A stretch of 64,000 bases of DNA from the NCBI GenBank assembly GCA_009746045.1, contig RPFO01000104.1:2556948-2620947 (forward strand), written 5' to 3'. Each line of letters starts with the position of its first letter. Positions within the stretch are counted from its first letter, which is position 1. The DNA is from Mesostigma viride (lineage: Eukaryota > Streptophyta > Mesostigmatophyceae > Mesostigmatales > Mesostigmataceae). The notes under the pieces were generated by a model. The model ran no database searches. It was not told where the DNA came from and was given only the letters and a program-made list of their open reading frames with translations. A program made the translations under genes and the position numbers. Of this stretch, positions 36,601-62,409 are shown in pieces.

Positions 36601-36732
36601 AGGATAGGCAAATTAAAATTAAATTATAACATGCCCGCCGTTGGGAGATCATGTAGCACATATTCCATGATGGATGGGTGGGGTGAAGGATTAGCCGCGT
36701 AATCGAACTATCCTAACTCTAAGCTATCTAGT

Positions 36733-40189: not shown

Positions 40190-40490
40190 AACGCCGAGGC
40201 GTAGGTATAATCTAGCAAACGTTGGGTTTTACGAATCTGACAGTTGACAGATGAGGTTGTAGCCCAAAATACCGGCACCACCATGGCTTTCACCCGACGG
40301 TTAGGTCGAGGCATGGTAGTGGAACGGGACTGTTTAGAGGCTGTCCCCGAAGCCTGTTAGCCACGAGCCGACGAGGAAGGTTGTCTACCTACGGACACCA
40401 CCTGGGAGGCAGCACCTGTCCTGCTAGACACCTCACGAGACTCCGCTCCGGGGGTGTTAATCTGAACACCTTTAAGCTGTTTCCCATCAA

Positions 40491-41265
40491 TTAATTAAAG
40501 AATGCTGCGAAGGAGCCATCCTGAAGCAGACGCAACTTAATGCGCTTACCCGGGGTCTCGAACTGCTTGGTCTCCTGGACGATGGTGCTGTTCCACACCG
40601 CGCTCCTCGCCTTCAGTTGAGCCGGCGTGTAGTCCTCGTCGAGGCTGAAGTCACCGCGCTGGAGCAGACGACGTGCTCCCAGCACGAGGCGTTTGTCGCA
40701 CGTGCATGGAGGCCATGGTGACGACGACCAGGCCTGAGAGGGCCTGGCAGCCGAATGGTGCACGTTCAATGGCAACACGGTTAGAAAGTGGAGCTGCAGC
40801 TTCCCCAGAAACGCTGTGCCACGCAGCTCCGGCATCGGCAAGGGAGTGTGCTGTCTTATGTGCTGCCGCGCCTTTCTGGAAGCCTTTGATTACCATATTG
40901 CGTTGGCGTTGCTGCACTGCATTCTGGGTGACCGCAGCGGTAGCTGCAGACTTGGCCGCCTGTTGAACGATGGTGGTCAACTGCTTGCCGGTGACATCGG
41001 CAAACGTGGTATTTTTGGCAGGGGCTGCCATGGCTTTCTTCAGCTCTAGCAATTGTGCTGTCGCAGCTGCAGACGCCTCCGTCAGGACCTTAATTATGTC
41101 GCCCTGCACGGTCGTAAAAGACTGACAGTGCGAGGTGCTGCAGCTGCACGGTAACATCGGTCGCGGGTGCTGGCCTGGCGATGGCTGTCGCCGGCAGCTC
41201 GACAAGTTCAGGGAAGCACGAAATAAGACAGGCAAGCCGACGAACGCTGGTCTGCCTCGATCCAA
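40491..41265 (-). pseudogene. LINE ORF1 (RNA-binding protein) relic
   Basis: Frames 41265-40651 and 40841-40491. The first has an Ala/Gln-rich helix (AAKSAATAAVTQNAVQQRQR, VIKGF); the second ends with FSLDEDYTPAQLKARSAVW and a basic tail, matching the LDDDLTPAQ...RRDLW segment of the ORF1 relic at 36100. Order and strand fit ORF1 of the LINE at 36607-41300. Confidence 0.65.
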
Positions 41266-41330
41266 TGAGGCCAGTCATCCGAAGCAGCCTCCATAACCTG
41301 GCCGCTCGTAGGGTGGCGAATCGGGGCGTA

Positions 41331-42794
41331 GTTACGTTAAATAGTGCCGGAACCTTTTGCCGCCTGAGGCAAATCGGGCCGGAACACTATTTTGCCCGGA
41401 ATAACCACTTCCGAGCACCCAAGTTAATTCGGCCGAATTAACTTGGGTGCTCGGAAGTGGTTATTCCGGGCAAAATAGTGTTCCGGCCCGATTTGCCTCA
41501 GGCGGCAAAAGGTTCCGGCACTATTTAACGTAACTAAAACCTGGCCTCGTGGAGGGGGGACGAAGAGCCCGAGACATCCGCCTAGGCCGCTGAGCACGCA
41601 CCACTAAATGCGCCGGAGCTGCCTCAGTGAGGATTCGAACCCCTGACCTCCAAGGTGCACAGGTTTTAGTTACGTTAAATAGTGCCGGAACCTTTTGCCG
41701 CCTGAGGCAAATCGGGCCGGAACACTATTTTGCCCGGAATAACCACTTCCGAGCACCCAAGTTAATTCGGCCGAATTAACTTGGGTGCTCGGAAGTGGTT
41801 ATTCCGGGCAAAATAGTGTTCCGGCCCGATTTGCCTCAGGCGGCAAAAGGTTCCGGCACTATTTAACGTAACTAAAACCTGGCCTCGTGGAGGGGGACGA
41901 AGAGCCCGAGACATCCGCCTAGGCCGCTGAGCACGCACCACTAAATGCGCCGGAGCTGCCTCAGTGAGGATTCGAACCCCTGACCTCCAAGGTGCACAGG
42001 TTTTAGTTACGTTAAATAGTGCCGGAACCTTTTGCCGCCTGAGGCAAATCGGGCCGGAACACTATTTTGCCCGGAATAACCACTTCCGAGCACCCAAGTT
42101 AATTCGGCCGAATTAACTTGGGTGCTCGGAAGTGGTTATTCCGGGCAAAATAGTGTTCCGGCCCGATTTGCCTCAGGCGGCAAAAGGTTCCGGCACTATT
42201 TAACGTAACTAAAACCTGGCCTCGTGGAGGGGGGACGAAGAGCCCGAGACATCCGCCTAGGCCGCTGAGCACGCACCACTAAATGCGCCGGAGCTGCCTC
42301 AGTGAGGATTCGAACCCCTGACCTCCAAGGTGCACAGGTTTTAGTTACGTTAAATATAAATAGTGCCGGAACCTTTTGCCGCCTGAGGCAAATCGGGCCG
42401 GAACACTATTTTGCCCGGAATAACCACTTCCGAGCACCCAAGTTAATTCGGCCGAATTAACTTGGGTGCTCGGAAGTGGTTATTCCGGGCAAAATAGTGT
42501 TCCGGCCCGATTTGCCTCAGGCGGCAAAAGGTTCCGGCACTATTTAACGTAACTAAAACCTGTGCACCTTGGAGGTCAGGGGTTCGAATCCTCACTGAGG
42601 CAGCTCCGGCGCATTTAGTGGTGCGTGCTCAGCGGCCTAGGCGGATGTCTCGGGCTCTTCGTCCCCCCTCCACGAGGCCAGGTTTAACTTATACGTTAAA
42701 TAGTGCCGGAACCTTTTGCCGCCTGAGGCAAATCGGGCCGGAACACTATTTTGCCCGGAATAACCACTTCCGAGCACCCAAGTTAATTCGGCCA
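41331..42794. repeat. Array of perfect long palindromes alternating with a tRNA-like cassette
   Basis: Palindromes: 41331-41534 (204 bp), 41660-41881 (222 bp), 41997-42218 (222 bp), 42335-42562 (222 bp plus a 6-base insertion in the left arm), and a left arm only at 42680-42794. Arms are identical by eye; the centre is AATTCGGCCGAATT. The ends read CAGGTTTTAGTTACG and its complement. Between them lies a cassette of about 115-125 bp with a GGTTCGAATCC B-box. Three cassettes share one orientation, and the fourth (42563-42679) is inverted. No coding capacity. Confidence 0.9.
42563..42679 (+). mobile_element. tRNA 3'-half-like cassette (SINE-like), inverted copy
   Basis: On + it reads GCACCTTGGAGGTCAGGGGT, then TCGAATCCTCACTGAGGC, like the anticodon arm, T arm and acceptor 3' strand of a tRNA. 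An unrelated stretch to CCACGAGGCCAGG follows. The A-box and 5' half are missing and the T stem is imperfect, so it is not a tRNA gene. Three copies on the - strand lie at 41535-41659, 41882-41996 and 42219-42334. Confidence 0.7.
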
Positions 42795-43429
42795 CGTAAC
42801 TGGCGTCGTTGTCGTTGCGGAGCTTCAGCACGCTTATCACAGCGGCGTCGTTGTAGGCGAGTAAGGTAGCGATGTCTGCCAGGCTCAAACGCTGGCCTGG
42901 CACGTAGAATGATGAGGGAATGGAGGCCGGCAATTAGGAGGTTTCAGCCTCTAGATATCGGAGTTGCTTCCGAAGTCTTGCGCTGCTTGTGCATGAGCGG
43001 CGTTCTCGGCGGCGACATTGCTGTCATTGGCGATTTTGTTTGCTGCAATGTGCATGGGCATCAATAGACTCGACAGGAGCAGAAGACGATGCGGGGGCCT
43101 CCTGGCATATCTACGTTGAATAACACCTAGACGATGGCATGCAGGGGGCGCAGGCGCACTGATCACGTGCGTGGTGCCGCCATAACGTGCAGAAAAATAG
43201 CGATATCTGCTGGGCAGGCCGCTGGCGATAACTTGCGAAATCCTGGGCGATGGCTGCCAAAAATTAGATCAGCGTGTTCGTCATCAAAAGGAGAGTCTGT
43301 TGCAATTTACCCGACCAAATTTTATGCCCGGAGTCAAAAGTTATGAGCATTCTCGGCATCCATAGCTCGGCACACCGTAAACCGCGAGAGTGGAGGTTTT
43401 GCATCTGAGGTTTTGCATCTGATTATAGG

Positions 43430-44500
43430 CATGGCTTGGCTAAATTCTGAAAGGCAACATCCATGGGGGCCATTATGGGCGCACATGCGCGTGGGCCACA
43501 TGCTAGGCTAATAAGCCTGACTAATGTGCACTACTGGTATATATTCCCTAGTCTGAGGTGGCAGGAGGTGCCTGCCAGGGCTTGTGGTCAACATGGATGA
43601 CCGCCCCCCTCCAGTATACCGGCTTCCCCCCTGCGCTCTGCCGTAGCTGAAGGTAGGTCGGCCATAGCTCGCGTCGCCGCTGTTGCTGCATGGGCCAGGG
43701 TCAAGTCGTCGTCCAGCGTGAAGTGCATGAGTCTCCGAGAGCTTCTTGCGGCATTTAAGGAACGCTGGCCAGCTTGTCCACCATGTACTTAAAGGTGAGG
43801 AGCACGGGTGCCGGGCCAGCCTTCCCCCGCGCGCGGGGGAGGCGGACAGCCGACATCCGCAGCTCACCAGTGAGTTGCATGGGGGCAAAAATGTCGCGCT
43901 TAAATCATTGCCTCAAGAAGGCTCGTGGAGGTCTCACCTGCCGGCTGGTCGAAGTGCGTGACGATGACATTGTGGCTGCGCTTGGCGATCGATGTCGGCT
44001 TCCTCGTGAAGGTCGAGGGCTTGTTGCTTGAGTTGTGCCGTGATGGTGGAGGTGGTGGAGGTGGTGTGATGCTTAAGCAAGTCCGCCCAGGTGGAGGGAG
44101 CATCGCCGCCCGGGCCAGCAGGTGCCGGCTGGACGGCGATGTCCTTCACCGCCTAGCTGGGCGGTGAGGCCGGCGGTGTCATGCAAGCACTCAAGCCGGG
44201 GCGGTGGCGGTGGCTTGAAGGCGTTGGTCGAGGTCGAGGAGCTGGGCTTTGATGTCGGCAGTGGAGGCGGAAATGGCAGTGGAGGTGGAGGCCGGCAGCG
44301 GTGGAAATGTGAGGAAGTTTGAACAGTAGCCAGCGTGCCACCCATTGCTGCTAGGTCGGCAGCAAGGGGGGTCACGTGCTGCTGAAAGGCTTTCGTGAGG
44401 ATGGAACGGAGGGTGGGGGCGGAAATGGATGGAGCCCAGATCTCGCCGTCAGAGCGCTGGAGAAGGGAGTTGATCGAGGACGGCATGCTCCACATCACCT
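43430..44500 (-). pseudogene. LINE ORF1 relic (third copy)
   Basis: - strand frames include a Pro/His-rich N-terminal part with RSILTKAFQQHVTPLAADLA (44400) and a degraded RNA-binding part ending near 43560 with the pattern KPVYWRGAVIHVDHKPW, equivalent to KVYWRGGDLMINHKMW at 36060. Downstream, GGCATGGCTTGGCTAAATTC and ATCCATGGGGGCCATTAT match 36546-36600. So it is another copy related to family C, broken by frameshifts. Confidence 0.6.
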
Positions 44501-47500
44501 AAAATCGGTCCGTCCGGTTACATGAGATCCTGGGAATTTTGGCGCGAACGCGTCGCGTTGAGGACGACGGGACCAGAAAAATTCCACCTCGCATGGCTGT
44601 CGACCCTATGTCCGCCGGAATATCAGTCCGAAGTCAATTATGCATGTTAAGTCGCTGCGATGGATGCAAACGACGCGTAAACTCTCCTGCTTTGCGATGA
44701 TGCATGGTAGATATTACTCGCGTATGTTCATGCGTCAAAATAATTCGCAAACTGAGACGCTGATTTTTTGTGTCGGCCAGATCTGGAATTGGCAGCGAAA
44801 ATGCATGTTTATTAATTGTGGGGGAAACTTTTTTGTTGGAAGCTCACAATTCCCAAAAGGTCGAATCCGAATGGGCTTCAAGTCTACTTTCACGAGCGCT
44901 AATCAGTTTTTCGAGAAACGAATCACATTTTCCAGGCTGTCGCATTACCTGCCGGCAGGTCAGATTTTGCTGTTTTCAGTGACGTTTACGACCGTCCTTG
45001 CTTGATGCGTTTCTTCCTTTTTTTCGGCTCACGGCATGGCGGGGCTTGTTCCAACATGCCTGCGGAGGTGTAAGCTGTGTAGCCATGATTTAAAAGTCAC
45101 ATATTGCTCTCGCGCCACCATCTGTTACTGCTCGACACTGCAAGAAACACTGGTTGCCTGCTCGCAACGCAAGCACAAGCACGACAACGGTGCCCTAATC
45201 CACATCCAGGCGTGTATTTCCGAGAAAAACTTCAGGCTTTTGTCGCGGCATACCTTCGGTGTTCCAAGCCGTTCACCGCTCCCCGAAATAGTCTTATGAC
45301 TCGCTTTTATAGCATTGTGGGTTCGCGTCCGCCATCTCCGCCGGGTGCTGACACGAGATGTTCGCGCTGAACCTGGACTGCAAGGTCGCCCGCTACCGGT
45401 TAGCTGTACGTATTTAGCAAGCTCTGGATGATATTGTCATGGTTTTGGTGCAGGAAGGTGCTGTGGGGGGTCTATCTCACCTCTTTACCTAGCTTTCCTC
45501 CTCCTAGCTTGACAGCTAAGTTTGCATCAGGAAGTCATGCTTGTTGACAAAGCTCGATGGATGTCAACCTTGGGATGTGCTGTGAAGGTGTTAGCATGCT
45601 TGCTTGAAGAATTGAATGCGTATGTGTGCAAGCAATCGACATTTTTTTTAAGGGCAGTAGGTAGCAGCCACGTTCTTATTCAATTGTGTCAGGACGTCTA
45701 TGTTGCCTTTACTGCACTCTGTCCTAGAGGAGTTTGATGCCACTGTAGATGACTATGACCAGTGGGGTGGTGAGGATGGGCCGGTGTGCTGGGGTGAGCC
45801 TGAAGGGCATCTTGGATCACGTGACCCTTAGGCAATCATGCCAGGCTGTGCAGTTTATGGCTTGTGATGTATGGATGCAGCGGGTGAAGCAGGTTGTCGT
45901 TGCCGTGGCCTGTGTTAGTGAACTCTATCATCTTTTAACTTACCCAAAGCCCCCCTAGACCTAAACTGCCTCGCCTTCTTTGAGGGGTTGCCTTCTTTGA
46001 GGAGTGCCATGTCTTGAAAGGTTTGTTGGGGCCCTGGCCTTTCAGAGTAGGTTGAGGTGGAGAGGGGTGGCACACTGCTAGGTGATGGCAGGGCCATCAA
46101 TGTGATGCACCTTACGTTGGGATGGGGACCATGCATTTGTTCTTGTTGCTAGCATGGGCAGGGTGAGCGGCTGGGAGTAAGGTGTAAGTGCTACTTGTGC
46201 CACTGTCCGAAAGGGGAGCTCCATGCGGTGGGCAAACAGCGTTGCAAGCGTACACTTAACACAAATGTGGTCTGATGCACTCAGCTGACCTGCCATTTCT
46301 CTTGATGCACCAAACCACACTAAAGGCTTGATATAGCCGGTAGGAAATGCATGTGCATGCAGTGTCAAAAGCAGAGAGGGACATTGTTAGCACATGAGTG
46401 TGATTGTAAACCGATGAGTGTGAGCCTCCCCGTGCCATCCCATGCATTTTACACCTATTTTTGGCAATCCCCCATCACGCCGCAGTTATGCACCGCCTAT
46501 GCAAGGGGGATGAATAGACAGTTCTAGGTGTGTTGAGGGATGAGATAAGGATAAACATGAGGAGCCATGCAGGCTAAAAAGGAAGGGTGATGTCAACAGT
46601 GTGTTTGCCCAGATTTTGATGTCAGGAGGGGCTGAAAGATCAGTGGCCACGATAAACCTAGGTGGATTACATGAGAGATGACACGACCATGAGAGGGTGG
46701 TAGATGAGTTCAACTGAGAAGAGCTAGCATTACATGCACAGATTCTTAATGACCTATGGACTGTCCAAGGGTTGGAGTTCAGTGCACGTTCCAAAGACTA
46801 TGATGAGCATGACGATGATGGCAAGGGGGCGGGGGGGCGCAATTAGGACAGGCACTGATGCAGAATCATGTTGTACAGCAGCTAGGTGCTGAGCTCAATT
46901 GAATAGCAGCTAGCAGCCCAAGCCACTGCTGTCCTTGATTGCGCTTTGTATTTCCATGTAGCAGAGAGGCACCTGGCAGATATATATTTGGATTAGCTGC
47001 TATAAGACACGCACAGCAGGGGTGCCCAGCAGAGTGGGCCAAGTACTGCAAAGGAGATTGTGTGTGCTGCCGAGCGGGGCCCGTTTAGAAAAGAGACTGG
47101 TCAGCCGACAGGCACGACTGGTCAGCCAAGCTCCCCTTCTTGAGGCTTGTAGGCACTATGGTGCTTGTTCCGAATGCCAGTCTCTACTGTGATTGATGGT
47201 GATTTTGTCCCTTGATGATCGCTTTTTTAGTCTGTGTTGGTTAATGTATCCAGCCCCAGTGGCATGTATATGAATCCCATGACAGCCATGACGATAATTG
47301 AGTGAAGAATGCAAAGTTTTCCAAGACAATGGCGCAGAATATGGAGTATTTTGGCAAAAATCGCTCTATTTCTGCTTGCATCCGTCACTTTTAGTGGGCC
47401 GGCAGTGGTCCTAATATGTCCAACTTGTGTTCTAGTGTAAATTCAAGTATTGTGCTATTAATGTGACGAATTCTGGCATGATTGGGCCACATATGTGCTG

Positions 47501-48360
47501 GCAGGGCTTCATAAGTTTGAAAATAATGCACTAAAACGGTGTTTTGGCTCATGTATGCCAGAATTATAGCACATAGTTTGGTCCTACATTGCATACTTAA
47601 GGGCGGTTGTTGTCTTTGGATGTAAATTAATAAGCATAACCATTTCCAGCTGAATTGGACTACATTTACTACTTGTGTGTGGCTGCTATGCCTCCATATG
47701 CCTGGAAAACATCGTTTTTTGCACTTTTCCACGTCACGGTTTGATGCTAAAAATAGGTCAGTTGGCCCCCCAATTTATGTGATGTGAACAGGGTCCTAGG
47801 GGGACCTTAAGTCCAGAAAGGCACCCCGATCTGACTATATGCGTGGGAGATATGACCCCATGTAACAAAAAAGGCCATTTTTAGGTGATGTGAGTGCAGT
47901 TGGGGGCGGGGGCACCCGAACAGCTGGCTGATGTTGTGCCAGCGACCCAAGTTGGTCTGTACGCCGTACGGATGCGAAAAAATGCGGGATAAAGAATATT
48001 TTAGGCCTCCGCGTATTATACGCGTTCCGTTTACTTCAGACTACGCGGTTTGGACTTGGAATTTTTCGGGGGTATACCAGCGGGCAGCGGGCACTGGCGC
48101 AGTGCCCAGGTTCTGGGCGCGGCGCGCTCACTGCACAGTTGAGATTTTTACTACTAGAAGTAGATGCGTACAGTTCTTTTCATAAAGCGCAAGCCTTGCA
48201 AAATGTTTGGCCGGTAGGAGACAGCTACTAGGACTAGGTACATAACGCACAATAACAGTGTGCCAGCAAATGCCAGCTGTGCTACTGACGGTGTAATGCA
48301 ATATAGCCACGACGAGGCCAGTGCGACTGTGCGACAGTGTGCAGCCATTTTCGATTTGCA
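44500..48360. other. No recognisable gene (3.9 kb)
   Basis: Short ORFs only, the longest 121 codons on + at 44640. None carries a domain that I recognise. The + strand stretch 45510-45960 has two adjacent open frames (71 and 69 codons) that might be a decayed gene. No tandem repeat, tRNA or transposon end was seen. Confidence 0.4.
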
Positions 48361-48363
48361 GCC

Positions 48364-48950
48364 ATGAAGAAGAAAGGGCCTGAATGGGATTTGGTTCTCG
48401 AGAAGAAAGAAGCAGTCACAGATGCTGTTAGTAACAAAACGCAGTTTGTGTCGAATAAGTTCTGCTCATTTTGCAACAAGAAGTTCTCATACGGGGCGGG
48501 GGCAATCAGCGTATTCCGAGTCCGTGCACACTTTGCCGGAATCGCAGGGGAAGGGATGTTACCCTGCGACAAAATTCCGCCGAATATCCGGAGCAGGTTT
48601 CTCAGGATTGCTAACAACAAGTTGCAGAAGTCAGACACCAAGAAGCAGCACAATTTGAACAGGGCAATGGCGGAGATGGGAGGGGCTGCATGCGCCGGCT
48701 GGTCAACTTGTCGTCGGTTCCCAGCAAAGGCCAGCTGAGCATCACCAAATGGCTGGTTCTCGTCGACGAGAAAGGTGTCCAGCTGCTGGCTGCCGAATTT
48801 TTTATCGAGAACGGCATTGCCTTCAATGCGGCTGATCCTCGAGCGCCGGCCTCTTTCAAGCAGATGGTGGCCGGCATGATCCAGTACAAAGGAGGGCATG
48901 CGCACGTCACCCCTCCTTCTCGGAAGTTGTGTCTTATGTCCTCTCATGCA
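48364..48950 (+). pseudogene. hAT transposase N-terminal relic (BED zinc finger)
   Basis: Frame 1 from ATG 48364 has a BED-type finger: CSFCNKKF, then a distal RVRAHFAG, IAGEG and LPCDKIP. A second frame from about 48690 continues LSITKWLVL, AAEFFIENGIAFNAADPRAP, SFKQMVAGMIQY, the conserved hAT segment that follows the linker. A frameshift between the two, and loss of the DDE core and dimerisation domain, make it a fragment. Terminal repeats not found. Confidence 0.75.
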
Positions 48951-49239
48951 TTATACAGTGGATGGCTTTCCTTACAATCAATTAATTAATTGATTCCTTA
49001 CTATTCCCTTTGCAGCCTGCTCCCCCCTGCACAATTACAAATCATAATCAGATAGGATTCCAGGGCATAAATGGAAGATGTTAATAAATAAGCATATACA
49101 CCAAATTTCAGTTGCAATAACTGCATGACCATCATCAAGGAGCGTGCTGATTGGGTGACTGACAATTGGACCACAAAAACTGTCGCGTATTTTACCGCCA
49201 CGTATTTTACACCGGCCCCCCACGTATAATACGCGTATT

Positions 49240-49686
49240 TTAGGTCCGCGTATTATACCCCGCACACGTATTTGCCACCCCGGCCAGCGACGGCCGTCGG
49301 TGACGAGGAGGCGTCCGGTGGCGTGGAGATGGAGGCACAGGTCGTAAAGCTCGAGGCGTAGTCCCCGTAGAATTGATGCAGTGCAGAGCATCGGACGGAG
49401 ACATGTTGGTCCAGTCGTGATCATCGACCTGGAAAGGTTGGGGCCAAAAGCGCAGTTCCGAGGGGCGTGAAGACCCTCCTGTTTTGTCGGCTGAGCGGGC
49501 GCGTTTAGGGTCAGGCGATGCCGAGGGCGAGGCATTGAGCCCGGGAGGTTGCTGGGCGACCACCAGTGCACGACTAGTGTCACCGCTGCCTGCCGGATCT
49601 GGCGAAGCTGCAGCCTCAGCTGCCGCATTTTCATGGGCGAGCGCATCCGCCAAACTGTGTTGCATCGAGGGGCGTTTGCTCGTCAT
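49240..49686 (-). CDS. Unknown 148-codon - strand ORF
   Basis: An Ala/Ser/Pro-rich N-terminal part with a basic PKRARS motif and FWPQPFQVDDHDWTNMSPSD. No domain recognised. Its 3' end runs into GTATTATACGCG-type short repeats (49180-49270), which also occur at 48010. May be the start of a mobile-element ORF, or spurious. Confidence 0.25.
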   Translation of the reverse strand: MTSKRPSMQHSLADALAHENAAAEAAASPDPAGSGDTSRALVVAQQPPGLNASPSASPDPKRARSADKTGGSSRPSELRFWPQPFQVDDHDWTNMSPSDALHCINSTGTTPRALRPVPPSPRHRTPPRHRRPSLAGVANTCAGYNTRT

Positions 49687-50485
49687 ATACTGCGCAATAG
49701 ATTCGGAAAATTATATCAGCATGTGCGTCTTAGAAAGACGAAGCGATAGTGATGTTCACGGCTAAATTCGGTGCTCAAACGTGAAAGTTATGAGCTCCGC
49801 CGTCAGCCATGGCTACCTCGTGGCTCCTCGTGGCTCGTGGCACGGAGCATTAACCTACTCTGTAGTTCATGGGAACCTCTATTCATGGGAAACCTCTGGG
49901 CACGAGCTATGGGCAACATATGCAGGCTTTGTGGAACAAAACTCAGGCCCATTGGGCCACTGGAGCTATTTTTCATTAGCATCACAATTACAACGCAGTA
50001 CAACGCAGTGGGAAAAATGAGAGCCCTTAATTCACAACATGACGCAACGACACAAGCCCCATAAATGGGGCCATAGTGATCTTGGAGGGTCAAAACGTTG
50101 AAAATAGGTGTTGTATAAGTTATACAGCATCAAACATGCATCAAACATCATGACTGGATGACCTAATATGACTGAATCAGGCAGCCAAAGCATCATCCAC
50201 TCTCACAACGTGTTGAGCACATGCCTCGTGGGAAAGGAGGTGCTGGGTTGTCATTCCATAACGTGTGCAATACTGAAAGAAAGAGGCACGTGTAATGCAA
50301 GGCTTGGATAGGTTGAGTGATCCATGAGCTTACAAGCAGGCAAAGATGACGCTGGAATGCATGCTAGCAAATGGTGGCAAGATGCTAACAACACATGATT
50401 ATACACCATAATTATGGGCACCTAGCTGATCTTCTTGCACAATCAACGTAGTATAAACCATCAACATCCAATCCTCACGATATAT

Positions 50486-50996
50486 TCTGATCAGGCACTC
50501 CGCAAAGGTGAAAACCTTTGCGTTCAGTGCCGGGCCGCGGAAAACGCGGAAAACACGATCTGCAAATGAATCCGACCGGAATCGAACTGGGGACCTCTCG
50601 CACCAATTTTGCTGACTATAGGACGGACGTCTCCGGTTACCATGGCATCGCCAACTTACACCTACAGTCATCCGCAAAAGTTCTCCTGTCCGGGGAGTGA
50701 TGCAAGCCTTTCGGATTTGGTACTAGATAAATCACTCGAGATCTGTGTGTAGGAGTACTACACACGTGTCTGCACGCGAGACTTGTTCAGTCTCGCACCG
50801 TGAGACGGGCTGAACACGGCTGAATCCTTCTTTAGAAGGGGGCGTAGCCGGTACTATCGAAATCAGCCAAGCGTATATTCTGATCAGGCACTCCGCAAAG
50901 GTGAAAACCTTTGCGTTCAGTGCCGGGCCGCGAAAAACGCGGAAAACGCGATCTGCAAATGAATCGACCGGAATCGAACTGGGGACCTCTCGCACC
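50486..50996 (-). mobile_element. Dimeric SINE-like insertion with 16-bp target duplication
   Basis: Flanked by AATCCTCACGATATAT at 50470-50485 and 50997-51012. Inside, two direct copies of a 120-130 bp unit (50486-50607 and 50876-50996) bracket about 265 bp. On the - strand each unit starts GGTGCGAGAGGTCCCC followed by AGTTCGATTCCGGT, a tRNA T-arm/B-box-like match, and ends with a hairpin of CGCAAAGG/CCTTTGCG and CTGATCAG. The long duplication is typical of LINE-mobilised SINEs; the two direct end units also recall a tiny LTR element. Confidence 0.75.
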
Positions 50997-51012
50997 AATC
51001 CTCACGATATAT

Positions 51013-51430
51013 GCACGGCTTGACGACGTATACAGCACCTAAATACTGCACAGCTGCAACCTGCTATTGCTGACATGCAAGCGACGTCGAGTAGGATAGC
51101 GGTCTTAGAGAGGCTGGGTAGAGGTCGGTAGAAATTAGTGGAAAACTGGCAGAAACTAGGTAGAAACACGATATACTTACGCCTGCAAGCACTATTGAGC
51201 AGGTGGCATAGGCCCGTTTCCAGGGAAATACAGCATACCGTAGCAATAGCCACGGTCACGCCTTACGCTATTTGCAGGCACCATAATGCCGGAGCTACCC
51301 AATAAAAGTCTGCACAAATCTCGGTTTAGCCGAAAATCCGGGCGTTCGGAATGAATAAAGATGTGTTAAGAAGTCGAAACACCATGGAAATACCAAGCAT
51401 GGTGCCGCAGCAGACCCGAGTCTTGACGTA
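51013..51430. other. No gene seen
   Basis: Ordinary sequence between the SINE-like insertion and a LINE relic. Short - strand frames only. Confidence 0.35.
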
Positions 51431-51434
51431 AAAA

Positions 51435-51785
51435 TATAAGTAAGTAAGTAAGTACTTGCGTGTCATGCGCAAAGGCATGCCACGGAGCACTATGCTAATC
51501 TCATTAGAAAAATAATTACACAAATCGTCTGCATCATCCCCCAACCGCTAGGCACTAGATGGGGATGTAATCCTCATCTGAGCTGTCCTCTACTGTAATG
51601 GCAGACGAGGCGGTAGTGCAGCGGCTATCCTCAGGACCAATAACCTCCACCTGCGGACTTCTACCCGGGCTAGCAACGGGCCGCGGGGCCTGTGGGGAGA
51701 AAACAGGAGCATACCCCTCAGGAAGGTGCTTATCGCAGATGGCAGCCCATTTATCCTTGTCAATCATGCGGGCGCGGAGTAATAA
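51435..51785 (-). mobile_element. LINE family A (copy 4), 5'-truncated
   Basis: Tail ATAAGTAAGTAAGTAAGTAC, hairpin, UTR and the intact C-terminal frame MIDKDKWAAICDKHLPEGY to SSDEDYIPI at 51790-51555. It is closest to copy 2 but has small deletions in the SRCTTASSA region. The 5' truncation point is at about 51780, inside RARMIDKDKW. Confidence 0.8.
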
Positions 51786-52163
51786 TATGTATTCCTGTTT
51801 CCAGGGTTTCCGCATGAAAGTTGGGTGAGAAACTGGAAAAACTACGTTTCCTTTGCCCCAGTACCTCAACAAACTCGTAGAAACCTAATTATCAACCTTT
51901 GAACGCATCATCATGATCCTGCCACCCAACAGCCACTGAAATTCGCGCGAAAACTGGCGAGATCTACCTGCCGCCATCGCCGTCGTCTTCACCTTCGTCC
52001 CGCGAAAATGCCTGATTTCAGAGGTACATACTTGTTTGCAGCTGTCACAAAAAAAATACCAAAAATACCAGGATTTTTCTTGAATTCTATGAGATGTTTC
52101 TGACCTATGTTGAAAGTTTCAGACCCAAAATCGCATGTTTAATAGGTTTGCCACGTGTCAGAT

Positions 52164-52216
52164 TACAACGCGATACATCGCGTTCTAACCCTACAACGCG
52201 ATGTATCACGTTGTAA
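52164..52216. repeat. Inverted repeat of CAACGCGATACATCGCGTT
   Basis: ACAACGCGATACATCGCGTT is followed, after a 9-base spacer, by CAACGCGATGTATCACGTTG. Each arm is itself near-palindromic (CGCGATACATCGCG), so it can fold in two ways. Short and without neighbours that explain it. Confidence 0.65.
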
Positions 52217-52229
52217 AAAAACACGGGTT

Positions 52230-53600
52230 AATAATTGACTAGTGTTGATGACTGGTTATTGTCAGTTTTTGGGGTGGTAGGCATGTCACCTCCGACTTTG
52301 ATGAAATACGCATACATGCAGCGCCAAACAACGCTGCGTCGCAGGAACAACCTGGCTGCACATGTTTTGACACGTAGTTGTCTCACTTATTGTAGGTACT
52401 CCAGATTTCCCAGGCCCTAACAACCCCCAGACATCGGGGTCACTTCATGGGATACCAATGAGGCAGTCAGTCCTAAATGCGCCGGAAAATGGCGACATGT
52501 TTCTCTCCGCTGTTGCGTTCGACCTGTCAAATCAACGGTGCATAACAGATTACCAAAAGCCCAACGCGGGTAACCGATCAATGTTGACTGGAATTCCATA
52601 TTCCGAAACTTCCCTGAAGAGGTACGAAATGACCTGATGCATGGCTTAGATTGGGACGGCATGATAACCACATCCCAATACAAACAAAAACCTAACAAAA
52701 AAGAGGAAAAAATTACGTGCACGCTGCCAGCATTTTCATTCACAGACGCAACAGACCATGGGTCGCAACAACACAAGGTGGGCCCTATGGCCTTGAACTG
52801 TCCGACCGTGTGAAAATGAGAAAGAAGCCACATATTTTTCCCAAGCTCCACATATAAGCTTGTCAACAAACCAATACATGACAGGGGCTGTGCAGGATTG
52901 AAGATGACAAAAAGCTCTTGTGAAAACCACTTAATACATGGTGGGGGCTGCGCCGTCCTAAGTAAAGTCGCAAGAACAAGCTCTTGCAAAAGTTCAGCTA
53001 ACGGATGGAAGGCAGTTTAAAAAAGAAGTGGATGGCCGATGGGGACATTGCAATCATGGCATGCACTGCGCCCACCGAACGTCGCTAGACTTTAGGATCG
53101 CAACCACGTCTTCAAGGGGTTGGACTCCCATCATCGGCAGACAGGCAACCAATCGAAATAGCCCAGTCTCGATGGACAGATGCCATGACGTATGGCCAGC
53201 AACCAATCCAAAAGCAAGGATCAATAAACATAGAAATAGAAATAATCCAGAAGCAACCAATTCAAGCCCAGAATGCTGTCAAAAAATGGAACGAGGGCAC
53301 TAAGACTGGTAACCACAGGGCACATGTGCACTCATCAATACCAGGATAAATCAACGGCCCGGGGCATGGCATGCCAACGCCAATAAATAATCTAGAATCC
53401 TTGTAAGCGAAAAAAGGCGGGAGAAGCACCGGCTGATGTCTACATTGCGGCATGTCCATCGCACTACACATTGCTACCTGTCCGTCCCATTACGGATGCC
53501 AACTGTATGCTAACTTCAACCAGACATGCATGGGCCCCACCACCTCTAGCATGCTCACGTGATGCATTGCATTGGTATATACAGACAGATCCTAGTGACC
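52230..53600. other. No gene seen
   Basis: Several open frames, the longest 190 codons on - at 52417-52989, with no domain or codon bias that convinces me. If the Trm8 gene's last exon exists in this window it should lie here or in 53600-53950, but I could not find its conserved end. Confidence 0.35.
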
Positions 53601-53951: not shown

Positions 53952-56900
53952 CTTCTGCCCCTCCTCGGTGGCGCTGTATAGCTGCGCGGTGCAGACGTCG
54001 GCCTCCTGAGGATAACACACACACACATATAAATAGTGGTAAAATTTACAGGGAGATGGGGAGGTGGCGAGAGGGGAAGAGATATAGGCACAGGCATAAG
54101 GCAAAGCACGGATGCCAGAGTAAGGTGATCAACACAACTGAGGTCGGTCGGTCGGTCGGTCGGTCGGTCGGTCGGTCGGTCGGTCGGTCGGGTGGTCGGT
54201 CCGTGCTATACAATGTTATCTAGAGAAACACATCAACTAGCAACTGGCGTTATGGCACTTACGTGCGTATTCTGGGGTGTGCACCAACCCTGTCAACACG
54301 TGTTGCGTTTGCGATTCGTTGTTTACTAAAACAACTAGTTGCAAATGCAAAACGCATGTCACTATTTGGAGGCTCTGCTTGTCCTCTGTCGCGGCAGCAC
54401 TACGGGTCAGCACTATGGGTCATCCGTCTCATTCTGGTAGTGATTGATTCATGCACCGAAACACACTCTCACACCCCATAGACATCCCCTGTCCTCCAAC
54501 CAACAACCGCACACACAATACCCTCCTGTGGCAGCGGCTCTACCTGCATCTACAGAACCGTCAGACAGTAGTCTATCTACACTACTATTAGTTAACTGCT
54601 GCCACACGCACGCACCATCTCCTCCCGTGACAGCGGCTCGAACAGCGGGTGCTCCTCCAGCTTGGCCCTCATCCAGTCGGCGAGCTCTTTGACGTCCGTG
54701 ATTGTGTAGACGATGCCTGCAAGAGTGACAGGATAGTAGAGCCGGCCCTTGTGCGTGAGGAGACCAGGGGTTGTCAGTGTGGCTCTTTGGCGTCCGTGAT
54801 GCGTACACGACGCCTCCAAGGACACTTGATAGAAGAAAAGGTTTGAGCAGCAAGGGTGTGAGTGTGGCTCTTTCACGTCCGTGATGGCATACAGCATGCC
54901 TGCGGGTGCGCCGGCAGCAACCGTGTGTGAGTGGCTAGCCGTTAGTTCGCTCACCCATGCCCTCCACTGCGACCATCTGGGGGGAACGTCACCATCTTCA
55001 AGGCTCAGCCTGACTGTCGTAGTGTTTAGAGTCTGGGGTTTCGGGTTCACGTGCACAGGAAGGGATGCTCCGATTGGGGGTCATTACAACGTCACACGTT
55101 CATCAATCCATCCTGAGGTGCCTCACCGATCCCTGGTAAACGGCATGGTGTACCCCTGGTAAACGACACGGCGTTCTCGGTCGTGGTGATATGGCCTCTC
55201 TGCAACGTGGCCATACTCAACCCTGGATGCCAGCAATAGTAGTAGCACGCCCGCATCACTCACACCCAGAGGTCTCCGATGCCAGAAGATTTTGATCGGC
55301 GCCCTCACTCACCCCCGGATGCCAGCAGGCAGGCGCCCTAACTCACCCCCCCGATGCCAGCAGGCGGGCGCCCTAACTCACCCCCGGATGCCAGCAGGTA
55401 GGCGCCCTAACTCACCCCCCGGATGCCAGCAGGCGGGCGCCCTAACTCACCCCCGGATGCCAGCAGGTAGGCGCCCTAACTCACCCCCCGGATGCCAGCA
55501 GGCGGGCGCCCTAACTCACCCCCGGATGCCAGCAGGTAGGCGTATTCGGTGAGAAGCTCCCGGCTGTGGCTCCACGTCCAAAAAAAGACAAGAACCATGG
55601 TCGAAATGGGGGTGGAAGTGAGCAGAAGAAAGGTTGTACGTTGGAAGCACTAACTGGTGCAGAAGACAAGTTGGGTCTTTGGAAACGTCCGAAAAAAGGT
55701 ACCCTAGGGCAGGACGCATGCAAGCCGATCGACGTCCCGTGTCTCTGCGACTATCAACCACCTGTGCCAGAAGATTATTAGGGAGGACTGTCTTGCCTTA
55801 CTGTGCCGAAAGATTATTAGGGAGGACTGTCTTGCCTTACTGTGCCGAAAGATTATTAGGGAGGACTGTCTTGCCTTACTGTGCCAAAAGATTATTAGGG
55901 AGGACTGTCTTGCCTTACTGTGCCGAAAGATTATTAGGGAGGACTGTCTTGCCTTACTGTGCCAAAAGATTATCAGGGAGGACTGTCTTGCCTTACTGTG
56001 CCACAAGATGATTAGGGAGGACTGTCTTGCCTTACTGCGCCGAAAGATTATTAGGGAGGACTGTCTTGCCTTACTGCGCCCAAAGATTATTAGGGAGGAC
56101 TGTCTTGCCTTACTGTGCCAAAAGATTATTAGGGAGGACTGTCTTGCCTTACTGTGCCGAAAGATTATCAGGGAGGACTGTCTTGCCTTACTGTGCCAAA
56201 AGATGGTTAGGGAGGACTGTCTTGCCTTACTGTGCCGAAAGATTATTAGGGAGGACTGTCTTGCCTTACTGTGCTAGATTATTAGGGAGGACTATCTTGC
56301 CTTACTGTGCCCAAAGATTATTAGGGAGGACTGTCTTGTATTACTGCGCCAAAAGATTATTAGGGAGGACTGTCTTGCCTTACTGTGCCAAAAGATTATT
56401 AGGGAGGACTGTCTTGCCTTACTGTGCCGAAAGATTATTAGGGAGGACTGTCTTGCCTTACTGCGCCCAGAGATGATTAGGGAGGACTGTCTTGCCTTAC
56501 TGTGCCAAAAGATTATTAGGGAGGACTGTCTTGCCTTACTGCGCCCAAAGATTATTAGGGAGGACTGTCTTGCCTTGTCCATGACTTGCCTTACCACATC
56601 TTTTCCTAGGCTGATGTCGTACCTACATTACCACCCATGGAGAGTAGAGCACCAGATGTTAGAACTCCTCAATGATGTCCATAAGTGACAGCAAAACTCG
56701 GGGAAGCCGAAAAAAAGAGGGAATAGAAGATTCAGGGGGGGGGGGGGGGGGGAAATTCGCGCTTGCCAGTATCCAACGGCCACATTCGCTTCTAGCCCAC
56801 ACAGGTGAAGTAAATATGAAGTACATGACAATCTCTCTTGTCTGCTGGTTTCCAAGAAAACAAGAGTCTATCTTGGTCCACAACAACCATGACCAGGGGG

Positions 56901-59900
56901 AATAACAAGGACCACCAGCCATCGCCTCTGCTGTGCCTACCTGAACATGCGACACCACTTGACCAAACACACCAGTAAATTAACTATAGGTCGGGCTGTC
57001 CCGTCCCGTCAGCGGGGTGGATTGTGAAATGTTGGTCAAAGTTTTCAGAACAAATGCAGGTAGGCAACGTTGGTCACGGCTCATGCAGGGGCCCCCACAT
57101 GTACCTGATGATCCTCCGCCGGTGGTTGGCGGCCTTGAAGTGGGGGTCCGGGAATAGGAAGAACATCTTGGTCAGCTGCCGGTGCAAGCATAGGGAAAAG
57201 GACGAGCATCTCGGTCAGCTGCCGGTGCAAGCATTCGGAATAGGAAGAGCGTCTTGGTCAGCTGCCGGTGCAAGCATAGGGAATAGGAAAAGCGTCTTGG
57301 TTAGCTGCCGGTGGAAGCATAGGGAATAGGAAGAGCGTCTTGGTCAGCTGCCAGTGCAAGCATAGGGAACAGGAAGAGCGTCTCGGTCAGCTGCCGGTGC
57401 AAGCATAGGGAACAGGAAGAGCGTCTCGGTCAGCTGCCGGTGCAAGCATAGGGAATAGGAAAAGCGTCTTGGTTAGCTGCCGGTGGAAGCATAGGGAATA
57501 GGAAGAGCGTCTTGGTCAGCTGCCAGTGCAAGCATAGGGAACAGGAAGAGCGTCTCGGTCAGCTGCCGGTGCAAGCATAGGGAATAGGAAAAGCGTCTTG
57601 GTTAGCTGCCGGTGGAAGCATAGGGAACAGGAAGAGCGTCTTGGTCAGCTGCCAGTGCAAGCATAGGGAACAGGAAGCGCGTCTTGGTCAGCTGCCGACA
57701 GAAACACTAGCAAACTTGAAGAACAGGGTAAGCGTTTGTGCATGTGTGTGAAAGAGACACATTCACAGACAGAGAGAGTCAGAGAGAGATGGAGAGAGAG
57801 ATTGGAATACACGCTACTGGCATACCTGGCAGTGGCACGCACCTGCCCCTTGCGGAAATAGTTGGGGAGGAACTTCATTGCGTTCGTGCGGATGCAAGAG
57901 ATGTTGCCGTACTGCAGGAGCGTGGGGTGGTGGTGGGGCGGGAGGATGGAGTTAGCAATAGTTATAAACTATTACTAACTGATGGAGGATGGACGCAAAC
58001 GAGGTCAAGTAGGTTGGGAGAAAAGCCATCATGTCAAGTTGGACCGCCCGGCGAAACGGTTAACGTAAGTCACTAGGTCATGTTAATTGCAGAGCTCGAA
58101 GAGACCTTTCTAACGCCGCCAAATCCTTATTATTAGCGGTCTAAGTGCATAACCACCTCCTTTGGCTACGGGGTTTCTCCGCCAGGGGACCCCTGCGGAG
58201 CTTACTGCAGGAAGAACCATCATGCAGCCATACCTCAGGCGAGGGCAGTTGAGGAACCCTACAACCTAAACAGCGCTCGTTCAGGATGAAGACCGGAAGA
58301 AGGAAAGGCATCGGAATGGGTCCGTTCAGTGAATGGAGATGAATGCAGAAAGAAATGCGCAGCATTGCACATTACAATTAGGGCTGGCATGCATCATGCG
58401 AAGCTACATATTCTGTTATACGCATACGTGTAGCAGCCAGCATGCGTCGCACAGGCGCTGTTCTACTGGCACTGCATTCTGTGAAAGCTGTATTCTGCCA
58501 AATCTGTATTATCCAAAAGCTGTCTGAATTCAGCAAAAGCTGCATTCAGTGAAAGCACTCGCTGCCCACATGATGTGATGGCAGGCAGCAGCTGTCCAGG
58601 TGTTCACCCGTACCTGCCCAGGGTGGTTGCGCCGTAACCCAAGGATTCGCTCCTTCACGTACTCCGCCACCTGGCAGGGTGGCACATGAACACACAAGGT
58701 TGGTGCGGTCAAAGTGCGGGTAAATGGTTTAACATGTAGGAGTTGCACATGCGTCCATGGGTGAAGGTATAGGTGTTGCAAATGCTACCATCGGTTAAGA
58801 TTACAGGTGTTGCAAGTGCTACCATCGGTTAAGAGTATAGGTGTTGCAAGACTACGTTTTGTTAAAATTATAGGTGTTGCAAATGCTACATTTGGTTAAG
58901 AAAATAGGTGTTGCAAGACTACATGTGGTTAAGATTATAGGTGTTGCAAATGCTACATTTGGTTAAGAAAATAGGTGTTGCAAATGCTACCATTGGTTAA
59001 GAATATAGGTGTTGCAGGTACTGGAGAAAACCGGTGACCGAGGAGGTGGGGCCGGGAGTTGGAGCGGGCGTGGGGCCTTGACGGTTTGCTCGTGGTGGGG
59101 AGCAGGGGCTTCCAGGATACTGCGGTGAGGTAGGCATACGTCTGGGGTTATGGATGTAGGTCTGGGTGACCTTGAATGGGTTTACCTTGTCCGGGTGACC
59201 TTGGATGGGGGGAGTACACATAGGGATACTTCATTTGTTGGAAAATGGGGGGTATCTCCGCGGAATGACCTGTGCTATCTCCCAGGCATATCAAACGGAA
59301 TTGTTATTCTTGTGCCTCCTTGTGCCAGACATGGGAACTCCGTTGTAACAAGAAAGGACCCCTAAGCCGAAATGCCCCCGCTAGCAAACTTAACCCAATC
59401 TAATATTATACCCTGGCGACAAGACCGCAGCATTGGGACGTTTGTGCCTACCCCAACGCGAGCCATGGCCACCGCTGCGTTCAAGGCCACCACATTCACC
59501 TTGTGCTACGAGCACCGTCTGACAGTCACGACACCCACCGTGGCCCCACGGTGGCCACAAGGACGGCACAAGACATGCTGGCGACATTGGTAGTGCTGGT
59601 AAGGTCTGCGCTACAACCAACTGATGGATGTATCACATTTTATCATTTCTGCATGCGACCGTTGCAGGTTCTGCCTTAATGCAGGAACGGATGCCAGCTT
59701 CTGGCGTCGGCACATCCCTGCCACTCTTGACCATCCCACGGGGTGCATATCGGTGGCATAGTAACAGAGAGGGCGTGAAACTGCAACTGCGTGGAGTCAG
59801 ATGATCGAATGAATTTCTACTTTGTATTAGATCCCTCCCTCCGATTGGGTGCTGGGTCGGACCATCGCAATCGATCCAAGCGGGCAGCAGAGACTCACCT

Positions 59901-62409
59901 TGTCTCGTATTTCAAACCCCACCATCAGCTTGGTCGGGAAGAGCGGGGAGAGCTTGACTGCGCGACAAGGGCATGAGGAATGGGTACCACAGGAATCGGA
60001 AACAGAAAGACGACGACAACATTCATCAGGACTGGTGTCAGGCATTGCATACAGGCATTGCATACAAAACGACAGAGAGAAATGGCAGGAAAGCTTGGGA
60101 CTTTCTGTGGGGGGGCGTAGCACAGACAGTCCCATGCTATCCTGCGTGTGCATGCATGCTTCCTACTAACAATATGTTCCTTTCACTGCACACTCACAAC
60201 ATCGTTAGATGGTGTGAGACAGAATAGATACTGCAATTGTATACTACCTAGTCTGGTAGTAGACGTGTTACTACATTGTTGGTGCCCGGATGAAGACGAA
60301 AGGACAGGGAGCGCAGGGGATGGGAAAAATAGACGATGGCAAAACAGGGGAAAGCTTAATGGCACTTTAAGCCATGGTAAACCCAATCTAGAACGGGAAG
60401 GAGACACGGGGAGAAAAAACAACCCCCACCAAAGGAACCCCCCACCATATGGACCCCCCCTGAATAGGAAACCCTCCACCAAATATAACCAATACCAAAG
60501 CAAACCGGCCACCATAGGAAACCCTCCACCATAAGCCCCCCCCCCTGAACAGGAAACCCTACACCACATAGAACCAATACCAAAGCAAACCGGCCACCAT
60601 AGGAAACCCTCCACCATAAGCCCCCCACCCCGAATAGGAAACCCTCCGCCACATAGAACCAATACCAAAGCAAACCGGCCACCATAGGAGACCCACTGCG
60701 CCGGGAAATCATCCCAGCAACCCACCAAGCAGGCCTCCAAATCCGCAGCCGACGTCTGCAAACTCCACCGCCGGTTGCGCCTTTCCCGCATCCTCTGCAG
60801 CGCGCGAAAACGGCCCAATGGGGACATGGGGACACGAGACAGGAGCAGAACAGCAACAACTCATTATGAAGCCGATTGGCGAACGTGAGGCGATTGGGAT
60901 GTAAGGCATCCGTGCATCGTGACACTGCAGAGAAGAACCTTCCTACTTGATTCTTCTATCCCAGAGAAAACGACCGCGGGCGGATACAAGACAGCCGCCC
61001 CTTGAGACAGCACCCGCGGCATGTCCGACAACGACATCGGCTCGGTGTGGTAATCAAAGGTGCTATAGGGTCGCTAGAACCCTCGGCTAGAGCACTTGTG
61101 ACAGCCAAACAGTACCTGGGTGCCACCTGGGCTTGGTAGGAAACATATCTGGTTTAAGAGTGAAGGATAGAGATGTACCTGGAGTGGAGGGGAAAAGTGT
61201 AGGTGGAGTGGGGGCCAACCTTAGGAGACACAACAGCGAACGATAGGGGGCATGACTTGTTTGGGGTGGACTACAGGAGATATACCTGGTTTGGGGGCCA
61301 ACATTAGGAGACACAACAGGCTTGGGGGAGAAATAGTAGTCCACATACAAGGTTTGGGGGCCAGCAGCTGCGAATAAACCTGTTCAGGGAGGGACAGCAG
61401 GGGCCATAGTAACAGCAGAGGACCTGGCCTGATCGCGCGCGCGCTGAACAGGGGCCTTACCTGGTTTTGGCGGGAAGAACGAGGGGTAGTGTTGCGACCA
61501 GTCCACTTCGCGCGGTGTCACCGGCCTGAAGGGGGAAAACGAGGAACAAGTGAACAAGCAAGAGCACAGGTTAAATAAGAGTGCAGGTTAAGCGCGCATA
61601 CAGTGGCTTCTTGGAACGTCACGAGCCTGGGGGGAAAAGTAAGCAAGAGGAAAAGGTAAACAAATTGAACCATTATGAGTAGTTTGTAGTGTATTGACTC
61701 TATTGCACGGGATTTGTATGAGTACCAAGTGATTGGAAGCACACTTGGTAATTAATGCACGCTGTGAAAATCCTCAATTACGGGTGGCAGAGCTGGGCAC
61801 GTGGGAGGGCAGCTATGAGCCATGAGCAATGAAGTACTAATAGGCATGAGTGATGGAGTATGGCTATGAAGGCAGATAGGGGCCACCGCAATGGAGCACG
61901 GCTATCAGGCAGATAGGGGCCACTGCTAGCCGCATAATCGAGCCTAGACAAGGGGAGGCATAACATGACATGGCGCAACCGAGGATGAGCCAGACATGCA
62001 TCCATCATTCTCCCACGAGCAAACCAATGCCTTTACCAACGTCTATTCTGTATGCATCAAATGGTTTCTACTCTCGGCCTCCAAGTCTCAAACACTTCTG
62101 GGTAGACCCTAACCAAACCACGATATATTCCTGACCCACGATATACTGGAAACCAAACAATTTCATGCTTCCTCGGCGATTGGAGAGCTGGATGATAGCA
62201 TGATTTGGCAGATCTTTTCTTCAAATAATCCGATAATCTAACGCACAGGCGTACTCAGGCAGGGAGTTGATGGTCCGTAAAAAACTTGTTACTCACACAG
62301 GGAACTGGTGGTCGGTCAGTGGGTTGCTGTGGGCCCGGGCCCGGAAGAATCGTTTCCGCGGCATGGCGCCGATTCTACCATCTGGACCGGGGATCCCTCC
62401 CGCCTCCAT
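53952..62409 (-). CDS. tRNA (guanine(46)-N7)-methyltransferase, catalytic subunit (C-terminal end missing)
   Basis: Methylates G46 of tRNA with S-adenosylmethionine; in eukaryotes it acts with a WD-repeat partner (Trm82/WDR4). Exons on the - strand: 62364(or 62409)-62297, 61525-61461, 60794-60726, 59957-59899, 58670-58614, 57911-57843, 57175-57105, 55563-55520, 54716-54616, 54005-53952. All phases agree, giving about 219 codons. Landmarks: RARAHSNPLTDHQFPV, REVDWSQHYPSFF, the SAM site EFADVGCGFGGLL, LMVGFEIRDK, VAEYVKERILGLR, RTNAMKFLPNYF, the family signature MFFLFPDPHFKAANHRRR, LTEYAYLLASGG, IVYTITDVKELADWM and LYSATEEGQK. The usual last 15-20 residues after EEGQK (VARNGG type in relatives) are not found; the nearest acceptor leads to a short unrelated frame. 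The start is uncertain between ATG 62364 and 62409 because the frame is open upstream. Confidence 0.92.
54145..54192. repeat. (GGTC)n tetranucleotide
   Basis: About eleven GGTC units with one GGGTGGTC break, in the Trm8 intron between exons 54616 and 54005. Confidence 0.9.
54778..54910 (-). repeat. Two partial duplicates of Trm8 exon 9 acceptor edge
   Basis: On - the exon 9 start reads GGCATCGTCTACACAATCAC, then GGACGTCAAAGAG. Copies without the rest of the exon lie at about 54785-54815 (GGCGTCGTGTACGCATCACG) and 54865-54902 (GGCATGCTGTATGCCATCAC), each followed by GAGCCACACT. Spacing is about 83-90 bases. They lie in the intron directly upstream of exon 9. Confidence 0.8.
55316..55537 (-). 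repeat. Array of Trm8 exon 8 donor edge, seven copies
   Basis: The unit alternates 34 and 35 bases. On - it reads CTGCTGGCATCCGGGGGTGA, then GTTAGGGCGCC: the last 15 bases of exon 8 plus its GTGAG donor. Copies have GATGCCAGCAGG (plus) at 55318, 55353, 55387, 55422, 55456, 55491 and 55525; the 55525 copy is the real exon edge. Confidence 0.9.
55765..56577. repeat. 38-bp minisatellite, about 21 copies
   Basis: The unit begins GATTATTAGGGAGGACTGTC and continues TTGCCTTACTGTGCCAAA. Units vary at a few positions (CCAAAG, CCGAAAG, CGCCC) and one is shortened near 56275. It lies in the Trm8 intron between exons 57105 and 55563. All frames are open (REDCLALLC type), which is an artefact. Confidence 0.95.
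57167..57700 (-). repeat. Array of Trm8 exon 7 acceptor edge, 13 copies
   Basis: 43-bp unit. On - each copy reads CACCGGCAG, the acceptor, then CTGACCAAGAYG-CTCTTCCTATTCCC, the first 25 bases of exon 7 with one or two changes, then TATGCTTG. Copies start (plus CTTGGTCAGCTGCC) at 57167, 57210, 57253 and so on to 57683. The 57167 copy is the real exon edge; the other 12 stretch upstream into the intron. Confidence 0.93.
58768..59025. repeat. 33-34-bp minisatellite, about eight copies
   Basis: The unit is TAGGTGTTGCAAATGCTACC followed by ATTGGTTAAGAA with variants (TACATTT, TACATGT). It lies in the Trm8 intron between exons 59899 and 58670 and is not derived from either exon edge as far as I can see. 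Confidence 0.9.
60425..60700. repeat. Tandem repeat of about 86 bp, three copies
   Basis: The unit contains AGGAAACCCTCCACCATAAG, a C-run, GAATAGGAAACCCTCC, CATAGAACCAATACCAAAGC and AAACCGGCCACCATAGGA. It starts about 25 bases after the donor of Trm8 exon 3 (60726), on the intron side. Confidence 0.85.

Follow-up and report, generated by a model that had tools for sequence, protein, structure and literature searches.

Tandem copies of exon edges and their splice sites in introns of a tRNA (guanine-N7)-methyltransferase gene of Mesostigma viride

We analysed a 64-kb stretch of the Mesostigma viride genome (contig RPFO01000104.1; the whole stretch is called the window), in which a Trm8/METTL1-type tRNA (guanine-N7)-methyltransferase gene, hereafter Trm8, occupies positions 62991-52476 of the minus strand and has the edges of three neighbouring exons, splice sites included, copied into the adjacent introns. 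The gene has 12 coding exons (Table 1) with GT-AG at all 11 introns, and its spliced translation of 271 amino acids is identical, letter for letter, to the deposited protein P0001 (eukprot jgi/Mesvir1/847/Mv17420-RA.1; we take Mesvir in such identifiers to stand for Mesostigma viride). An earlier eight-exon assembly of the gene was already 100% identical to eukprot jgi/Mesvir1/847. We do not treat the deposited protein models as independent support for the splicing pattern, as they may stem from the same genome assembly as the window. The Trm8 protein matches the Pfam family PF02390 (Methyltransf_4) with an E value of 1.6e-48 and the solved tRNA (guanine-N(7)-)-methyltransferase 3ckk, presumably human METTL1, with an E value of 1.5e-66. 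By its Methyltransf_4 domain and its close similarity to eukaryotic tRNA (guanine-N7)-methyltransferases, the predicted protein is a member of the Trm8/METTL1 group. The initial annotation of this stretch had placed the copied edges at exons 7, 8 and 9; all three border repeats are confirmed and only the numbering needs correction, these being exons 8, 9 and 10 (71, 44 and 101 nt) of the deposited 12-exon model.

The start of exon 8 belongs to an array of 13 head-to-tail 43-bp units, giving 12 extra copies upstream of the exon. The acceptor junctions run from 57691 to 57175 in exact 43-bp steps with no gap in the series, and every unit reads GGCAG/CT(A/G)ACC (the first slash marks the junction), which is also the pattern that was used to locate the units. 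Of the 43 bases in a unit, the 17 from the intron end in GGCAG and the other 26 are exon bases; the intron half is diverged in the outermost unit, and the acceptor AG is kept in 13/13 units. This agrees with the 13 copies of a 43-bp acceptor unit that had been annotated, except that the unit holds 26 coding bases and not 25. Tandem Repeats Finder (TRF) places the array at 57150-57697, with 12.7 copies and 90% matches. Self-alignment gives E values of 1e-148 for this array and 5e-39 for the donor array of exon 9 described below, and chance is therefore excluded for both. The variants within the acceptor array follow a partly three-unit pattern. A shared branch-point role for the CTGAC of each unit was rejected, as CTRAC is found within about 45 nt at only 1/10 other acceptors (that of exon 7).

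In exon 8 itself the codons ATG TTC fall within QLTKMFFLFPDPHFK, a stretch that 3ckk, the solved homologue, shares unchanged. The unit adjoining the exon reads ATG CTC, and the other 11 copies read ACG, followed by CTC or CTT in ten of them and by CGC in one. Because the exon keeps the conserved ATG TTC while the distal copies carry ACG, exon 8 is the likely source of the array, and the intron copies would have diverged and been amplified later.

At exon 9 it is the donor edge that is repeated, in alternating 35- and 34-bp steps, with GTGAGT in 7/7 units, six of which are extra copies. A decayed eighth copy keeps GTGAGT at 55264 and a ninth lies near 55230, so that two decayed units are added to the seven 34/35-bp copies of exon end plus donor that had been annotated. 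The predicted RNA folding of the donor array does not stand out from that of shuffles (z 0.61), and RNA structure concealing the donor copies was rejected on this result. Both of the annotated extra copies of an exon start were found upstream of exon 10, and AG/GC is kept at the junction in each (2/2). Downstream of the same exon lies a copy of its donor edge that is absent from the initial annotation; it matches at 27/33 bases and scores 21, the maximum in 300 shuffles being 17. Chance is excluded for the exon 10 copies because 0/300 shuffles reach the score.

Other edges of Trm8 gave weak candidates. The candidate at the exon 2 donor edge scored only 10 (p 0.56) when the search began 30 nt into the intron, and further weak, insecure matches were obtained at the exon 3 donor (score 13) and the exon 6 acceptor (score 16, gapped). 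We found no secure copy of the Trm8 coding start, and beyond the Trm8 stop there is a weak match only (score 15, p 0.015).

Table 1. Exons, border copies and minisatellites of the Trm8 gene, in window coordinates (exons are given high to low)
Feature	Position	Strand	Remarks
Exon 1	62991-62970	-	
Exon 2	62450-62297	-	
Exon 3	61525-61461	-	
Exon 4	60794-60726	-	
Exon 5	59957-59899	-	
Exon 6	58670-58614	-	
Exon 7	57911-57843	-	
Exon 8	57175-57105	-	start is the likely source unit of the acceptor array
Exon 9	55563-55520	-	
Exon 10	54716-54616	-	
Exon 11	54005-53952	-	
Exon 12	52523-52476	-	
Exon 8 acceptor array	57150..57708	-	13 copies of the 43-bp unit, the exon-proximal one being exon 8 itself
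Exon 9 donor array	55298..55542	-	seven GTGAGT-bearing units spaced by 34/35 bp; unit 1 is the true end of exon 9
Two decayed further exon 9 donor units	55215..55297	-	alignment extends to 55215; one has GTGAGT at 55264
Upstream copy 1, exon 10 acceptor edge	54782..54836	-	acceptor 54813, +97 nt, out of frame; scores 28 and 31
Upstream copy 2, exon 10 acceptor edge	54867..54903	-	acceptor 54899, +183 nt, in frame, open; score 23
Downstream copy, exon 10 donor edge	54508..54540	-	donor 99 nt downstream, GT kept
Weak candidate, decayed exon 2 donor-edge copy	62252..62275	-	score 14, GT lost; not secure
Weak candidate, decayed exon 3 acceptor-edge copy	61618..61661	-	score 15 (range 13-15), shuffle p 0.010; not secure
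39-bp x 21 minisatellite	55762..56576	-	inside intron 8, no exon edge touched; background array
34-bp x 8 minisatellite	58737..59016	-	inside intron 5, no exon edge touched; background array

Many competing splice sites, mostly out of frame, had been annotated, and this description holds: the signals are intact and nearly all of the alternatives wreck the frame on paper. With 11/12 extra exon 8 acceptors, translation is predicted to end prematurely after residue 194; use of the nearest extra acceptor is predicted to shift the frame. Likewise, all seven extra GTGAGT donors after exon 9 (six in the array and one decayed) would give premature stops, and use of the exon 10 donor copy would give a stop after 244 residues. 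Of the two exon 10 acceptor copies, that at 183 nt would add 61 residues in frame and that at 97 nt would shift the frame. On paper, an intact protein would thus depend on the exon-proximal sites nearly everywhere. The deposited Trm8 model uses exon-proximal sites only, and its open frame is intact.

Border copies are also present in an unrelated gene. A mitochondrial HSP70 gene lies about 78 kb to the right of the window (C1801, about 2699019-2705102) and was the only gene found when 191 E. coli reading frames were compared with 264 kb by tblastn; its model equals the deposited model Mesvir1/854 exactly (604 residues). A copy of the first donor edge, matching at 37/39 bases with AT in place of the donor GT, lies 156 bp downstream. 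Copies of other donor edges are offset by 107, 105 and 891 bp, and an acceptor edge has a copy 95 bp upstream. The last codons are copied as well, 153 bp beyond the coding end, which has no splice site (score 18, reached in 0/200 shuffles); no secure copy of the start of the HSP70 model was found. We also observed that Trm8 exon 10 copies sit 97 and 99 nt away and that three HSP70 copies are 95-107 bp away, and a preferred copy spacing is possible.

The frequency of copying at exon edges was compared with that at intron positions. For each edge we scored any copy that spanned the border and lay on the same strand of the adjoining intron, and intron positions served as controls, with one unit kept per array. 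Edges were obtained with a purpose-written spliced protein-to-DNA aligner, which recovered 22/22 edges from Trm8's own protein; with four distant homologues, 18/24, 19/28, 19/26 and 20/22 of the predicted edges were right, the errors being in the 5' part of the gene. The sample included a Root_cap-like family gene of the window (8569-17625, plus strand), which has 18 Mesvir1 relatives among the matches listed and whose edges were inferred from paralogues. Ten other HSP70 loci were taken from a DnaK search (44 matches listed), further ones such as two more C1580 genes being left out. In these ten stretches, 19 introns were supported by at least two of three models, and removal of two doubtful ones (L034 and L036) left 17 introns with 34 edges, of which 28 border introns of at least 250 bp; copies would be hardly visible in shorter introns. 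Three of the ten (L039, L040 and L041) have matches with internal stop codons, and some may be broken genes or intron read-through. The last border of the DnaK-based model of the mitochondrial HSP70 gene, later shown to have no intron, and one poly-C match (low-complexity filter) were left out of the edge counts.

At a score of at least 18, copies were found for 4/22 edges versus 72/925 intron positions in Trm8, 5/10 versus 55/393 in the mitochondrial HSP70 gene, 0/8 versus 120/619 in the Root_cap-like gene and 0/34 versus 72/1959 in the ten other HSP70 loci. Pooled over the 13 loci, 9/74 edges are copied versus 5.93 expected from the intron positions (P 0.13). Results at other thresholds were 10/74 (P 0.20) at a score of 16 and 9/74 (P 0.09) at a score of 20. 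Likewise, when 21 Trm8 edges were tested by circular shift at five thresholds, P ranged from 0.10 to 0.38. The sample is limited in size and uneven, with 5/10 in one gene and 0/34 in ten others. These counts do not point to a general exon-border hot spot, which as a general rule was rejected on the Trm8 shift test, the ten HSP70 loci and the pooled P value; a weak, modest or local border bias is possible.

We consider it likely that the border repeats arose incidentally, through ordinary tandem duplication acting locally in introns rich in repeats, and that units straddling a border are tolerated since splicing would continue at the exon-proximal site. Slippage or repair would create tandem duplications anywhere in the gene, and a duplicated unit would occasionally straddle an exon-intron border, so that the intron-side copy would hold either an acceptor followed by the opening bases of the exon or the closing exon bases followed by a donor. 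A duplication within an exon would disrupt the protein, and one across a border would be harmless if the exon-proximal site were still chosen. Small exons favour exon definition, and this may be why the spliceosome would keep the exon-proximal sites of the small exons 8-10 and the extra copies would remain intronic. The intron copies would then mutate and amplify among themselves, and protein-level selection would keep the exon unit constant. With the exon partner held in this way, a border copy may also be recognisable for longer than a pair of intron copies. As background, the 264-kb stretch, which includes some N, contains 72 arrays of period 10-200 (TRF score of at least 80), and six arrays of period 34-85 bp lie inside the Trm8 gene, two of them touching an exon edge.

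Several observations weigh against this explanation. The proposed use of exon-proximal sites is taken from the deposited models. In the first three genes taken by themselves, edges exceed intron positions (9/40 versus 4.66 expected, P 0.037), and half of the mitochondrial HSP70 edges are copied. In the interior of exons, only 2/388 positions of the three genes have a copy at a score of 18, as expected if copies reach only a short way into exons. When the arrays are masked, four significant self-matches are left in Trm8 and the mitochondrial HSP70 gene, two of which were flagged as involving an exon edge and a third of which is, by offset and position, the exon 10 acceptor copy; a slower evolution of the exon partner could explain this. 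The excess in the first three genes, the HSP70 edges and the several single copies at offsets of 95-107 bp would also suit the initially suggested duplication mechanism focused on exon-intron borders. Such a process, which could for example be linked to splicing or R-loops, would copy exon edges more often than other sequence. We regard such a mechanism as unlikely, and it is not supported by the added HSP70 loci, the Root_cap-like gene, the Trm8 shift test or the pooled counts. Duplication plus tolerance is favoured over a splice-linked process because the HSP70 coding end, which has no splice site, is also copied. We see a similarly small chance that, in some Mesostigma genes or regions, a recurrent process copies exon ends into neighbouring introns with a preferred spacing near 100 bp, as in the HSP70 gene (5/10) and Trm8 (4/22). 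If so, long introns would be seeded with exon-border decoys for the spliceosome to reject, a natural large-scale test of exon definition.

The premature stops predicted from 11/12 extra exon 8 acceptors and 7/7 extra GTGAGT donors would suit a poison-splicing switch, in which the extra sites divert a share of the transcripts and so set the level of the methyltransferase. The initial annotation had likewise proposed that the sites could tune or destroy expression. That proposal is not supported by the intact open frame and the exon-proximal sites of the deposited model, and we consider a switch quite improbable: the units are highly alike, as young repeats would be, which gives no sign of conserved function, the donor array has no RNA structure above that of shuffles, border copies occur in the unrelated HSP70 gene, and the amphioxus examples are reported to leave splicing undisturbed and to give no aberrant mRNA (PMC3087553, PMC3902484). 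It is still less probable that the copy numbers, which are taken from the assembly, were invented or inflated. The units differ by ordered point variants, the window contains no N, and the arrays of 245-815 bp are far below the read N50 of 11.2 kb given for the PacBio assembly of M. viride NIES-296 (442 Mb in 2363 scaffolds; PMC6947507), so that collapse or expansion of the arrays is unlikely. The genome examined here comprises 439.9 Mb in 2243 contigs, a size that suits the PacBio assembly rather than the Illumina assembly of strain CCAC 1140, given as 281 Mb (PMC7027972). In a search of the examined genome, the 43-bp unit matched at this locus only (at least six matches listed, all within 0.6 kb), and it contains the gene's own coding bases. 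A dispersed repeat as the identity of the unit is thus largely refuted, and insertion of an introner-like or mobile repeat at the splice sites by chance is extremely improbable, even though introners carry splice signals.

The window and its flanks contain other features. Very long microsatellites lie at window positions 3942-5526, 7516-8147, 9608-11047 and 12645-13751, for example (CTCC) over 1.6 kb, and the introns of the Root_cap-like gene hold long microsatellites. A 338-bp tandem repeat of 4.3 copies is present at 41329-42793. An intronless histone H4 gene (L020:8653-8961, plus strand) has a translation identical to the H4 sequence it was compared with. Probable retroelements are represented by frames in L029, L023 and L014, with matches to reverse transcriptase, Tf2-type or zinc-knuckle domains that in some cases stay below the curated cut-offs. 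Pfam searches of ten open reading frames of the window gave one weak Root_cap match, and those of 20 high-scoring frames (18 in the flanks and two in the window) yielded fragments of retroelements, histone-fold hits and one weak match to IF-2B/PP2C. In read-through frames (33001-48001, three plus-strand frames; 38001-53001, three minus-strand frames), Pfam gave only RVT_1 and HpaP, both below the curated cut-offs, in a search that would miss short exons.

In the open-licence literature searched, no report of exon-border minisatellites in Mesostigma or another streptophyte was found; a paper on simple sequence repeat markers contains both "Mesostigma" and "minisatellite" (PMC3037304). Amphioxus "mirages" are described as minisatellite-like tandem repeats over exon-intron boundaries, in Adh3, the globin genes BflGb6 and BflGb9 and troponin C, which affect both 5' and 3' borders and keep the splice signals in many copies (PMC3087553). 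Adh3 data and globin reverse transcription PCR suggested undisturbed splicing, and the copy number of mirages is reported to vary between haplotypes (PMC3087553). Imperfect duplications over splice sites are likewise described for lancelet PGBD5 (PMC3902484). As in the mirages, the Trm8 units span the boundary (17 intron and 26 exon bases in one array, exon end plus GTGAGT in the other), both types of border are hit (acceptors at exons 8 and 10, donors at exons 9 and 10) and the signals are kept (AG in 13/13 and 2/2, GTGAGT in 7/7, GT in the exon 10 donor copy). Unlike the mirages, the Trm8 repeats have a streptophyte green alga as host, with units of 43 and 34/35 bp in up to 13 copies at three adjacent exons of one gene; instability and normal splicing are features reported for amphioxus.

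Tandem duplication also places splice signals within a gene in the Rogers-type model of intron gain (PMC4974935, PMC2891723). In Trm8, by contrast, there is no sign of a new intron, and existing introns have gained copies of their own borders. The human interferon-induced gene 6-16 (IFI6) reportedly has an exon-end minisatellite with a donor-like site in each unit, several of these donors being used. Trm8 shares with it a tandem repeat at an exon end with a donor-like site per unit and differs in that, of the donors examined, only the exon-proximal one keeps the frame. The locus matters less if, as the counts suggest, general tandem duplication simply catches borders. It nonetheless offers a ready-made competition experiment, with 13 near-identical acceptors and seven near-identical donors of which only the exon-proximal ones give the deposited protein, and it extends exon-border minisatellites, known from lancelets and reportedly from one human gene, to the green-plant lineage.

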